NCBI GenBank assembly: GCA_937918935.1
Contig: CAKZSI010000055.1
Coordinates: forward strand, 1-61,354
DNA length: 61,354 nt
Direction of reading: 5' to 3'
Source: an uncultured Chloroflexales bacterium
GTDB taxonomy: Bacteria > Chloroflexota > Chloroflexia > Chloroflexales > Chloroflexaceae
Shown: positions 52,904-55,508 of the stretch, in pieces
Numbering within the stretch: the first letter of the stretch is position 1
Layout: each line of letters begins with the position of its first letter
The notes under the pieces: generated by a model
The model's database searches: none
The model's input: the letters and a program-made list of their open reading frames with translations, nothing else
What the model was told of the DNA's origin: nothing
Made by a program: the position numbers and the translations under genes

Positions 52904-53002
52904 GCGTATCTCACTTCGCCAGGCTGTACGTAGCAAAAAGGGGAGAGTGCGGGAGATCCGCGCTCTCCCACACTCTCCCCATCTTTGTGGTGTGTCTACA
53001 CC

Positions 53003-53296
53003 TCAAACGGCGACGATCTCCTCACTCAGCTTATGCTCGGGGATCGGCAGATCGACGTTCAGGGCCTCCGCGGTGAGCATGGGCTGGAGAATGCGCTGCA
53101 ACGCCATCACGTGGGCGCAGGTGTTCCAGACCTGGAAAAACGAGCAATCGCAGTGCCATTGACCGTCTTTCAAAGAGATAGTGTGGCTGCTATTCCCACC
53201 ATGGAAGGTGACGTTGAGTTCATTAAACTTGATCCGCTCCGGCTCCTCGGCGTAGCGGCGGGCCTTCTCGATCTTGCCAATCAGGTCGGAATGCAT
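53003..53296 (-). CDS. Small stand-alone SWIM zinc-finger protein
   Basis: 97-aa protein made almost only of a SWIM zinc finger: Cys49, Cys51, Cys60 and His62 in WHCDCSFFQVWNTCAHVMAL (C-x-C-x8-C-x-H). SWIM domains bind DNA or proteins and usually form part of larger proteins such as helicases; a short one on its own is less common. aggagg precedes the ATG by about 6 nt. It is transcribed from a strong promoter at 53483-53511 through a 180-nt leader with a leader peptide and terminator, so transcription attenuation is likely. Confidence 0.85.
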   Translation of the reverse strand: MHSDLIGKIEKARRYAEEPERIKFNELNVTFHGGNSSHTISLKDGQWHCDCSFFQVWNTCAHVMALQRILQPMLTAEALNVDLPIPEHKLSEEIVAV

Positions 53297-53353
53297 TGCG
53301 TGCCTCCTGTTATCTCTGAACTGCCGTGTTCAGACCACTCCACTCATCAACGA

Positions 53354-53397
53354 GAAAAACATCAGGGGCGCCGCAGGCGTATGCCTACGCGCCCCTG
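53354..53397 (-). terminator. Attenuator-like terminator in SWIM leader
   Basis: CAGGGGCGC and, opposite, GCGCCCCTG anchor a hairpin of about 15 bp (53363-53397) with an ATAC loop. On the minus strand it is followed by ATG and then TTTTTCTC. It lies between the promoter and the SWIM gene. The leader peptide stop codon lies in its first arm. Confidence 0.75.
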
Positions 53398-53435
53398 AGG
53401 GAAGTGCTGATGGCGATGTTCGTTTTTGCCCCCAT
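53385..53435 (-). CDS. Leader peptide, 16 aa
   Basis: ATG 53435 to TAG 53385 encodes MGAKTNIAISTSLRGA. A strong ribosome-binding site, AGGAGG at plus positions 53443-53448, lies 7 nt upstream. The stop codon lies inside the first arm of the hairpin at 53363-53397, so ribosome movement could melt or hold the terminator. No single amino acid is enriched, though Thr, Ser and Ile make up nearly half. Confidence 0.6.
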   Translation of the reverse strand: MGAKTNIAISTSLRGA

Positions 53436-53482
53436 ACCGGCGCCTCCTGAATAAGAGGTTAAGGGGTGCTTAACATAGGCCC

Positions 53483-53511
53483 ATTATAGAACCGGGGCAG
53501 GGGCGAGTCAA
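53483..53511 (-). promoter_or_regulatory. Promoter of SWIM gene leader
   Basis: On the minus strand, TTGACT (53511-53506), 17-bp spacer, TATAAT (53488-53483). Start near 53476. It is one of the best promoter matches in the window. Confidence 0.82.
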
Positions 53512-53620: not shown

Positions 53621-54424
53621 TCACCCGGTGCGCATCCGCGCCGCCAGGCTCAAGATGCGCTGGCCATACTCGGTACCGGGCACGGCCCAGCGTCCGTTCA
53701 GGTCGGTGATGGTCAGCGCGACCCCACGGTTGGCAGGAGAAAGGCCGCGCACCTCCAGGGCGTAGGCGACCAACTCCTGCTGGCAGGGTGTGCCGAAGCC
53801 GGCAGGCAGCGCGTAGGCCAGCAGGCGCCCCAGGTGTGCCCGGACGGAGTCGCTGTCCCAGGCGGCAAAACTGGCCCCCTCGCGCCAGACCAGGCCGTCC
53901 CAGGCCCAGTTGCGTCCGGGCGGATACTCGGGTGAGCCGGGGATGGTCGCGCCGGTTACGGCGATGCCGGCGGGGTTGCGGCGGGGCCGGGCGCACCACC
54001 AGGAGGTCAGGCTGCCGGTTTCGTGGGCGCATTGGGCCAGGGCCAGGAACCAGTCCACGCCCGCCTCGGTCCCGATCCGGGCATAGGCTCCCACAATCGA
54101 CGTGATGTCGTAGAGGGTATAGAGTGTGGAGCGGGCGGCGAACCAGGCGATGGCCTGTTCAGCCGTCCCCGAGGGCGGCGCCAGCAAATAGCCGCTCTCG
54201 TTGGCCCAGACGCCTGGATCGGTTGGGAGCGGGGGTGGCGGCTCTGGAATGGGATCGGGCGACGGCTCAGGAACAGGCTCGGGTGGTGGTTCCAGGCCAC
54301 TGACCAGGGGGAGGTAGATCTGGAACGGGGACTCCTGAGCGCAAACGGGACGCGCGCCGGCAAGCGTAACAACCGTGGCGCCCAGCAGGTGCAAGAGGCG
54401 TCGGCGAGAGAGCATGGCCTTCAT
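53621..54424 (-). CDS. Secreted glucosaminidase-domain protein
   Basis: 267-aa exported cell-wall hydrolase. A signal sequence starts MKAMLSRRRLLHLLGATVVTLAG with paired arginines and ends near VCA-QES. A YLPLV motif (about 34-38) and a Pro/Glu/Asp-rich linker follow. The enzyme domain resembles mannosyl-glycoprotein endo-beta-N-acetylglucosaminidase (GH73-like), with the probable catalytic Glu in ALAQCAHETGSL. It would cut N-acetylglucosamine links in wall glycan. ATG 54424 is used; ATG 54415 is close. The open frame upstream is not homologous. Confidence 0.8.
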   Translation of the reverse strand: MKAMLSRRRLLHLLGATVVTLAGARPVCAQESPFQIYLPLVSGLEPPPEPVPEPSPDPIPEPPPPLPTDPGVWANESGYLLAPPSGTAEQAIAWFAARSTLYTLYDITSIVGAYARIGTEAGVDWFLALAQCAHETGSLTSWWCARPRRNPAGIAVTGATIPGSPEYPPGRNWAWDGLVWREGASFAAWDSDSVRAHLGRLLAYALPAGFGTPCQQELVAYALEVRGLSPANRGVALTITDLNGRWAVPGTEYGQRILSLAARMRTG

Positions 54425-54483
54425 TTTCTCCACGCGCACAAGCTGCGCTTGCGACCTACCATTGGGATAAGCACAGGGTTTTT

Positions 54484-54505
54484 CAGGGAGGGCCTGCCCT
54501 CCCTG
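54484..54505. repeat. Palindrome family B, perfect copy
   Basis: CAGGGAGGGC-CT-GCCCTCCCTG, 10-bp perfect arms, in the divergent region rather than after a stop codon, so this copy cannot be a terminator for either neighbour. Confidence 0.72.
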
Positions 54506-54675
54506 CCGCAACTTCAGTTGGGAGGCGCCTGACCGGCTGCCATGGTGGCGCGCTGGCGGCAACCCGGTGCGCTACGGGGCACCTATTGGGTTTAACGTGC
54601 CTGATGGGTCTGTTCGGCGTTTATGAAGATGACAGGATGGTGGCACTCCCGGGGCAACCGAACCTGTGCAAAGAC

Positions 54676-54704
54676 TTGACAAGACCTGATAATGAGTGTA
54701 TACT
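54676..54704 (+). promoter_or_regulatory. Promoter of TetR-efflux operon
   Basis: TTGACA (54676-54681), 17-bp spacer, TATACT (54699-54704). A near-perfect promoter with a start near 54711, right at the first operator-like site. Confidence 0.85.
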
Positions 54705-54776: not shown

Positions 54777-55508
54777 ATGGTGCAAGATCTCGAACCCATC
54801 AGCAGCCCCACGGCGGTGAAGATCGTTGACGCCGCCAGTCACCTCTTTATGCAGCGGGGCTATAAGGCTGTCTCGATTAACGATATCATCCGTGCCGCGG
54901 ATGTGACCAAGCCAACTCTGTACTACTACTTCGCCGACAAAGAGGAACTGTTCGTTCAGATGGGGCTGCGGGTGCTGCAAGAGGTGGGCGCCCGCCTCAC
55001 TGCTGCGGCCAATGCTCCCGGCGGGACAGTTGCCCGCCTGCGCGCCCTTGCTGCCGTGTTGATGGACGACCGCGACCGTGATATGCGCATGATGCGCCAT
55101 GAGATGGCCGAGCATCTGGGGCCGGCCAATCGCAACCGGCTGGCGCGGGCCTTTTTCACGCACCTCTTCCGCCCCATTCTGGCCGTGATGGAGGAGGGCG
55201 TGGCCGAAGGGACGCTCGGGCATTTCGCGCCGGTGACCCTGGCTAACCTGTTCCTCAGCGTGTCCGAGGCCTGCCAGGAGTTTTCCGGCGAGAGCCGGAT
55301 GGTCGCCTGGGCTGCTGAGAGCGGCATTCCCGTGCACATTAGTCCGATCTCTACCGAGGAGACGGTGGATCTGTTTCTGTACGGTGTTGCAGCGTCAGGG
55401 CGCCGTGGCGCCCCGGACGCTACCGAGATGCATGAGGCGCATAGTGAGAGAGCGTCGAGAGGGTCTGGGAGGCTGGCGCCCTCCCAGGAACACCCGTATG
55501 AAGCCTGA
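54777..55508 (+). CDS. TetR family transcriptional regulator
   Basis: 243-aa repressor. The N-terminal HTH reads KIVDAASHLFMQRGYKAVSINDIIRAADVTKPTLYYYFADKEELFVQM, and residues about 70-210 form the helical ligand-binding domain. It probably represses the promoter at 54676 and the efflux genes that follow, with release by the exported compound. The last 40 residues or so (from about ASGRRGAPD) are low in family similarity; the DNA there contains a family B palindrome (55465-55487), so the natural end may once have been earlier. A 152-bp gap separates it from the next gene. Confidence 0.88.
   Translation: MVQDLEPISSPTAVKIVDAASHLFMQRGYKAVSINDIIRAADVTKPTLYYYFADKEELFVQMGLRVLQEVGARLTAAANAPGGTVARLRALAAVLMDDRDRDMRMMRHEMAEHLGPANRNRLARAFFTHLFRPILAVMEEGVAEGTLGHFAPVTLANLFLSVSEACQEFSGESRMVAWAAESGIPVHISPISTEETVDLFLYGVAASGRRGAPDATEMHEAHSERASRGSGRLAPSQEHPYEA
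55465..55487 (+). repeat. Palindrome family B inside the TetR reading frame
   Basis: CTGGGAGG-CTGGCGC-CCTCCCAG within the last 50 bases of the coding region. It is the only A, B or C element found inside a recognised coding sequence in this window. Confidence 0.7.

Follow-up and report, generated by a model that had tools for sequence, protein, structure and literature searches.

Does the short ORF found upstream of a gene encoding a small SWIM-like protein in a member of the phylum Chloroflexota, together with the hairpin into which this ORF runs, control transcription of that gene and, if so, by what means? The first-pass annotation of the window, i.e., the entire 61,354-nucleotide stretch of DNA analysed here, had proposed ribosome-controlled transcription attenuation, with an independent small RNA, some 120 nt in length, being offered as the alternative. 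The locus was accordingly compared with those surrounding related genes in the same family, in the same class and in other classes of the phylum.

Organization of the Leader Region

Examination of the minus strand confirmed the order of elements described in that annotation, namely, a promoter, an AGGAGG sequence, a 16-codon ORF, a hairpin bearing the stop codon of this ORF, a T-run and the SWIM-like ORF with a ribosome-binding site of its own (Table 1).

Table 1. Elements of the SWIM-like locus and neighboring sequences, numbered from the first nucleotide of the window.
Feature	Position	Strand	Remarks
Promoter TTGACT, 17-nt spacer, TATAAT	53483..53511	-	11 of 12 consensus positions
-35 element TTGACT	53511-53506	-
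-10 element TATAAT	53488-53483	-
Dyad GTTAAG-N5-CTTAAC	53458..53474	.	Adjoins likely transcription start; putative operator or 5' hairpin
Shine-Dalgarno (SD) sequence of leader ORF, AGGAGG	53443..53448	-
Leader ORF, 16 codons, MGAKTNIAISTSLRGA	53385..53435	-	ATG 53435-53433; stop TAG 53387-53385
Intrinsic-terminator-like hairpin, 16 bp	53362..53398	-	One bulged G; leader TAG inside first arm
T-run TGTTTTT	53355..53361	-	3' of hairpin
Second small hairpin/dyad CTGAAC-ACGGCA-GTTCAG	53316..53333	-	5' of SWIM-like gene ribosome-binding site
SD sequence of SWIM-like gene, AGGAGG	53303..53308	-
SWIM-like target gene	53003..53296	-	97 aa
Terminator-like hairpin with T-run	52940..52980	-	3' of SWIM-like gene; -37 kcal/mol, z -7.0
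Upstream neighbor, 313-aa protein	53621-54562		Proline-rich linker (by eye)
Promoter-like site TTGACA-17-TATACT, strong	54676-54704	+	5' of ORF at 54777
ORF resembling TetR regulator	54777		Label by reading

The leader hairpin has a predicted energy of -32 kcal/mol (z -7.0 relative to shuffled sequences), yet was not listed in a simple terminator scan of the window, an omission that we think reflects the bulged G. An imperfect T-run, seen both in the window and in genus g9 (Chloroflexus), is a point against attenuation. The presence of a terminator-like hairpin 3' of the SWIM-like gene suggests that leader and gene form one unit. Promoter scanning yielded three promoter-like sites in 6 kb, as compared to 0.9 in shuffled sequences, and listed none between the leader hairpin and the SWIM-like gene. 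The GTTAAG-N5-CTTAAC dyad was matched once in the window and not at all in shuffled sequences.

In f1, the family of the window, 33 of 36 loci have a promoter of the window type 5' of the leader. In 26 of these 33 promoter-bearing leaders, the sequence TTAA occurs no more than 38 nt after the -10 element, with TTAA-N5-8-TTAA being seen in 17 of the 33. Thirteen of the 36 loci, with genus g9 unrepresented among them, carry the pattern CTGRAC..GTTCAG 3' of the terminator and 5' of the ribosome-binding site of the SWIM-like gene. Searches against Rfam at the gathering score gave no match across the whole window; at E values up to 1, five loci returned only two tRNAs and four chance-level microRNA matches. 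As for the neighboring 313-aa protein, Pfam gave no match at E up to 0.001; the end of TftA was matched weakly, with a score far below the TftA cut-off.

The SWIM-Like Target

The ligand consensus of SWIM zinc fingers is C-x-C-x(n)-C-x-H. When 26 of the 36 listed relatives of the window protein were aligned (alignment A2), the motif C-x-C-x8-C-x-H proved invariant in all 26, the putative ligands being C49, C51, C60 and H62. Twenty of these 26 sequences matched the Pfam SWIM family (PF04434) at E up to 0.1, with the window protein itself scoring 15.2 bits, below the gathering cut-off of 19.6. The earlier label of SWIM zinc finger is weak for the window protein taken alone but agrees with the ligand pattern, and the protein is here termed SWIM-like. 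Its predicted structure (mean pLDDT 82.9) matched no PDB fold at E up to 0.001, and a sequence search of the PDB produced a single match (E 0.42) that gave no function.

Relatives of the gene were detected in 84 of 100 near genomes, in 133 of 158 genomes of the class and, in a sample of 400 genomes taken across the phylum, in 303, with named records being labelled Chloroflexaceae, Roseiflexaceae, Herpetosiphonaceae and Anaerolineaceae, among others. In several genomes (G046, G058, G071 and others), two SWIM-like matches fall within one open frame of some 200-210 codons, corresponding to a tandem duplication.

Conservation of the Start Codon and Its Distance to the Hairpin

The 133 loci of the class sample, from which one incomplete match (G128) was left out, were scored by a single rule that assigned a hairpin and a start codon to 121 but not to the other 12. 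Ten loci were set aside, leaving 111. These comprised L101, a second SWIM copy, and the nine loci of genus g21 (L077, L085, L087, L090-L094 and L117), where a tRNA-Leu (tag) and a terminator replace the leader. The same tRNA-Leu lies upstream, within the fetched stretch, in other genera of family f4 (L078, L083 and L089).

An ATG or GTG preceded by a fair SD sequence was found 26-45 nt 5' of the hairpin in 84 of the 111 loci, as opposed to the 5.6 expected from the density of such starts further upstream; with a strong SD sequence, the corresponding values were 51 and 0.5. If the unscored and set-aside loci are all counted as misses, the spacing is still seen in 84 of 133. For subsequent analysis of the reading frame, 105 leaders representing 57 genera were kept from the 111 according to distance (26-52 nt) and SD sequence, the start codon having been picked by SD sequence and codon alone, blind to the position of the stop codon. 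Within the limits of this 26-52-nt selection, the distance from start codon to hairpin had a median of 37 nt, with the middle half of the values lying between 35 and 39 nt.

Position of the First In-Frame Stop Codon

Of the 105 leaders, four have their first in-frame stop codon before the hairpin, 47 at the hairpin base (positions -6 to +4), 17 inside the hairpin and 37 beyond. The other two frames of the same leaders behave differently, with 51 stops before the hairpin, four at the base, six inside and 44 beyond in frame +1, and 32, eight, 11 and 54, respectively, in frame +2. When each genus was weighted, which removes the effect of species relatedness only in part, stops before the hairpin amounted to 4.0, as compared to a mean of 20.9 and a lowest value of 11.8 in 1000 shuffles of the leader interior, while stops at the base amounted to 21.9, as compared to a mean of 5.0 and a highest value of 11.8. 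In family f1, the leader ORF mostly comprises 10-19 codons.

Exceptions to the layout are provided by genus g21, genus g20, many loci of families f10 and f11 and those loci in which no hairpin was scored. The ORF extends beyond the hairpin in g20, in 17 of the 21 scored f11 loci and in eight of the 16 f10 loci, an arrangement that is compatible with blocking of the hairpin by a ribosome, although not in the form seen in the window. In genus g40 of f10 (L113-L115), an upstream ORF crosses the hairpin and reaches the SWIM-like start without encountering a stop codon; in L114 and L115, this ORF is, by eye, in frame with the SWIM-like gene.

Other classes of the phylum were represented by 40 loci, scored in the same manner, hand-picked from among the matches listed and mostly one per family. 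A terminator was present within 170 nt in 31 and absent in nine, and a start codon was assigned by the start criteria in 24. Here, eight stops were at the base of the hairpin, six inside, six beyond and four before, with the other two frames giving one and one stops at the base, and 11 and seven before. Shuffling gave a mean of 1.9 stops at the base (highest 9) and of 9.2 before (lowest 0). Because shuffled sequences thus also reach four stops before the hairpin, the other-class sample taken alone is suggestive rather than decisive. In L061, a record labelled Anaerolineaceae, the ORF was likewise seen by eye to run into the hairpin.

Taken across both samples, the first in-frame stop codon lies at the base of the terminator, within it or past it in 101 of 105 class leaders and in 20 of 24 leaders from other classes. 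Conservation upstream of SWIM-like genes had been proposed as a check of the attenuator assignment; orthologous leaders for the most part keep the ORF, the terminator and their spacing across the class and, in part, in other classes.

The Leader Peptide

Whereas the frame is maintained, the peptide that it would encode is nearly free to vary. Short N-terminal motifs are common within clades only, with MGAK... being found in most of family f1 outside genus g9, MKTCVT... in most of g9, and MR..xPxEY.. in several genera of f4 (Roseiflexaceae), others differing elsewhere. Across the leader peptides of 40 genera, no residue run common to genera was detected. Nor was a control-codon run of the trp type found, runs of three equal residues occurring in three of the 40 genera and involving a different residue each time. 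Conserved nascent-peptide residues of a stalling sensor of the TnaC or ErmCL kind were likewise not found in the leader set.

Within genera, leaders that stop no more than 20 nt into the hairpin have undergone 39 synonymous and 89 nonsynonymous changes, as compared to 30.4 and 97.6 expected, corresponding to a slight deficit of nonsynonymous changes. Substitutions are, moreover, distributed nearly evenly over the three codon positions. Judged from these sequence comparisons, the leader peptide seems to be nearly neutral, such that the peptide itself would hardly matter. That the start codon, frame and position are kept while the peptide is nearly free argues against both an amino-acid sensor and a stalling peptide.

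A nearly neutral peptide that contains no common control codons is also what one would expect were leader and terminator to act as a fixed brake, holding expression of the SWIM-like protein constant and low without responding to any signal. For this purpose, however, a weak terminator alone would suffice, and neither a conserved start codon, an open frame nor a fixed spacing would be needed. We accordingly consider a fixed brake to be improbable, and favor a leader in which translation of the ORF influences the fate of the hairpin.

The Hairpin

In an alignment of 29 of the 35 f1 leaders (alignment A1), compensatory changes were seen in 10 of the 13 pairs of the consensus hairpin. Matches at E up to 0.01 were obtained in 46 of 100 genomes with a covariance model built from the f1 leaders, used with strict filters and scoring 39 candidates per genome. 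The best 42 matches (E up to 2.2e-4, one per genome), including 29 leaders from which the model was built and 13 that had not contributed to it, all lie 5' of a SWIM-like gene. The remaining 13 of the 55 matches are weaker; 11 of these lie away from a SWIM-like gene, all with E values of 4.8e-4 or weaker. One such match, G043:C15, corresponds to a hairpin with a T-run.

These results bear on the small RNA previously offered as an alternative. It is true that the window holds a complete unit, from promoter to terminator, of the size expected of an RNA of about 120 nt, which could also be a small-protein gene, lying 5' of the SWIM-like gene by chance. Chance placement is, however, difficult to reconcile with the best model matches all preceding a SWIM-like gene, just as a small-protein gene is difficult to reconcile with a nearly neutral peptide. 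Moreover, the gap between hairpin and SWIM-like start codon measures only 36-37 nt in the eight g9 loci and 20-25 nt in eight of the 31 hairpin-bearing loci from other classes, too short to accommodate another promoter. An independent transcription unit thus appears scarcely credible.

Conservation near the window extends to the sequence of the hairpin and not only to its shape. A strict hairpin pattern was matched seven times in 100 genomes, once in each case, and six of the seven matches are SWIM leaders; many f1 hairpins also share, by eye, a one-base bulge on the 3' side. Both features would suit a hairpin that serves as the binding site of a regulator, perhaps of the SWIM-like protein itself in an autoregulatory manner, with the ORF being secondary. 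Against this, the hairpin sequence as judged by eye differs in f10, f11 and other classes, while the geometry of the ORF stays. A regulator site is therefore held to be very improbable, and it is the relation of the ORF to the hairpin that is considered in what follows.

A Possible Mechanism of Control

Conservation of the ORF, the terminator and their spacing across the class supports the earlier interpretation of the layout as one of ribosome-controlled attenuation, with the geometry pointing to direct blocking rather than to a switch of the trp type. Work by Li and others in E. coli showed that termination drops from approximately 90% to under 10% once a stop codon has been shifted from 28 to 5 bp upstream of a terminator, an effect that was abolished when translation was uncoupled (PMC4824070). 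In most of the leaders considered here, the ORF terminates at the first arm of the hairpin or within it, a position from which a ribosome blocks a terminator directly (PMC4824070), which argues against the trp type. The reading that we favor, with some reserve, is hence one of transcription attenuation under ribosome control, achieved by direct blocking as in E. coli pyrBI.

In such a mechanism, transcription would start just 3' of the -10 element and the leader ORF would begin some 37 nt 5' of a strong terminator, its frame remaining open to the base of the hairpin or into it. If ribosomes arrived too late at the end of the leader, or not at all, the hairpin would form and RNA polymerase would stop after about 120 nt. 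Were a ribosome instead to occupy the last codons or the stop codon during synthesis of the second arm, the first arm would be covered and the hairpin blocked, allowing the polymerase to read on into the SWIM-like gene. A point against such a mechanism is that blocking over so short a distance would call for a polymerase pause or for very fast initiation of translation. Readthrough would be the sign of a polymerase that has paused or of a ribosome that is quick or lingering.

A terminator located in the initial 100 bp of a coding region can be efficient, translation not yet being coupled to transcription there (PMC4824070). From this, the default outcome in the leaders considered here is probably termination. 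Given the blocked geometry of the leaders, the likeliest course of events would be that a ribosome close behind the polymerase prevents the hairpin from forming and that the SWIM-like gene is then transcribed. The elements themselves, their spacing, the open frame, conservation of the hairpin and the nearly neutral peptide are all evident from the sequences. We infer that the hairpin terminates transcription and that the ORF is translated, as well as the direction of the response and the nature of the signal, the latter being, at a guess, the coupling of translation to transcription. It is conceivable, although we hold this only tentatively, that the leader acts in much of the Chloroflexota as a peptide-independent sensor of how close the ribosome is to RNA polymerase, made up of about a dozen nearly arbitrary codons some 37 nt 5' of a terminator and controlling the SWIM-like protein. 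If so, the SWIM-like protein would be part of the response to uncoupling of translation from transcription.

A different switch could arise were the region of the leader ribosome-binding site to pair with the second arm of the terminator, thereby serving as an antiterminator. In the window, pairing of positions -16 to +4 of the leader ORF with the second arm gave -26.8 kcal/mol (z -4.0 relative to shuffled sequences); among the 30 of 56 genera that were listed, six (g1, g5, g8, g14, g22 and g32) had average z values between -2.1 and -4.8; and over all 56 genera, the mean was z -0.41 (p 0.017). Yet with only a quarter of the 56 genera falling below z -1, such pairing is no general feature, and in L006, a locus of the window's own genus, the region pairs differently and more weakly (-15.3). 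Furthermore, a G-rich SD sequence and a C-rich second arm favor pairing of this sort, and the shuffling was by single bases. The leader ORF, finally, ends at the hairpin itself, which a terminating ribosome would block. Over the 56 genera, no general alternative fold was found, the pairing being strong in the window and in some genera but weak overall. We therefore consider a switch based on the ribosome-binding site rather unlikely, and direct blocking by a ribosome is retained as the preferred reading. Pairing between the A-rich leader start and the T-run was also considered and was dismissed as too weak, the native combination giving -8.2 kcal/mol, as compared to -7.0 when partners were swapped between genera and -7.6 upon shuffling.

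In sum, the attenuator reading of the leader is supported by comparison of sequences. Together with such a reading, the conservation of the leader hints that the small SWIM-like protein may play a part when translation or transcription is under stress.

Comparison with Known Attenuators

To our knowledge, leader-peptide attenuators are known mainly for amino-acid, pyrimidine and antibiotic-resistance genes. The pyrBI attenuator senses UTP, and the leaders of amino-acid attenuators, such as those of trp, his and ilv, carry control codons.

In pyrBI, a closely following ribosome keeps the terminator hairpin unformed, as described in PMC4824070 and PMC5021804, and the leader ORF, pyrL, runs into the terminator, as do the leader ORFs considered here. 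The two systems differ in that pyrL is, according to the same sources, a 135-bp gene with the terminator inside, whereas here a short ORF ends at or in the hairpin. They also differ in target, being a pyrimidine enzyme in the one case and a SWIM-like protein in the other.

With the trp, his and ilv systems, the present leaders share a leader peptide and a terminator 5' of the gene. In amino-acid attenuators, however, the leader gene and the terminator are separated by more than 20 bp, which keeps a pausing ribosome from blocking the terminator directly (PMC4824070); neither such a gap nor control codons are present in the leaders described here.

The antibiotic-induced leaders bmrB, vmlR and msrD likewise consist of a short upstream ORF and an intrinsic terminator. 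For bmrB, the leader ORF contains the terminator (PMC4191407), and for vmlR, two of three variant tripeptides induced expression like the original, the third doing so less (PMC9226507). In these instances, however, resistance genes and stalled ribosomes are involved, together with an antiterminator in the case of bmrB, whereas the SWIM-like target is no known resistance gene. The upstream-ORF attenuator of Sinorhizobium meliloti DUF1127 is different again, since it is thought to be Rho-dependent, operates without an intrinsic terminator and relies on translation of the upstream ORF to lower expression.

The physical principle of ribosome-blocked termination is thus already known. No paper joining leader attenuation with a SWIM-like target in Chloroflexota was found in the open-licence literature and, as far as that literature shows, novelty lies with the phylum, with the target and with wide conservation in combination with a nearly free peptide. 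The approximately one hundred natural leaders assembled here offer a collection in which one can follow how spacing governs ribosome-blocked termination. The same physical principle seems to have been kept, with a nearly free peptide, for one gene in many members of a single phylum.
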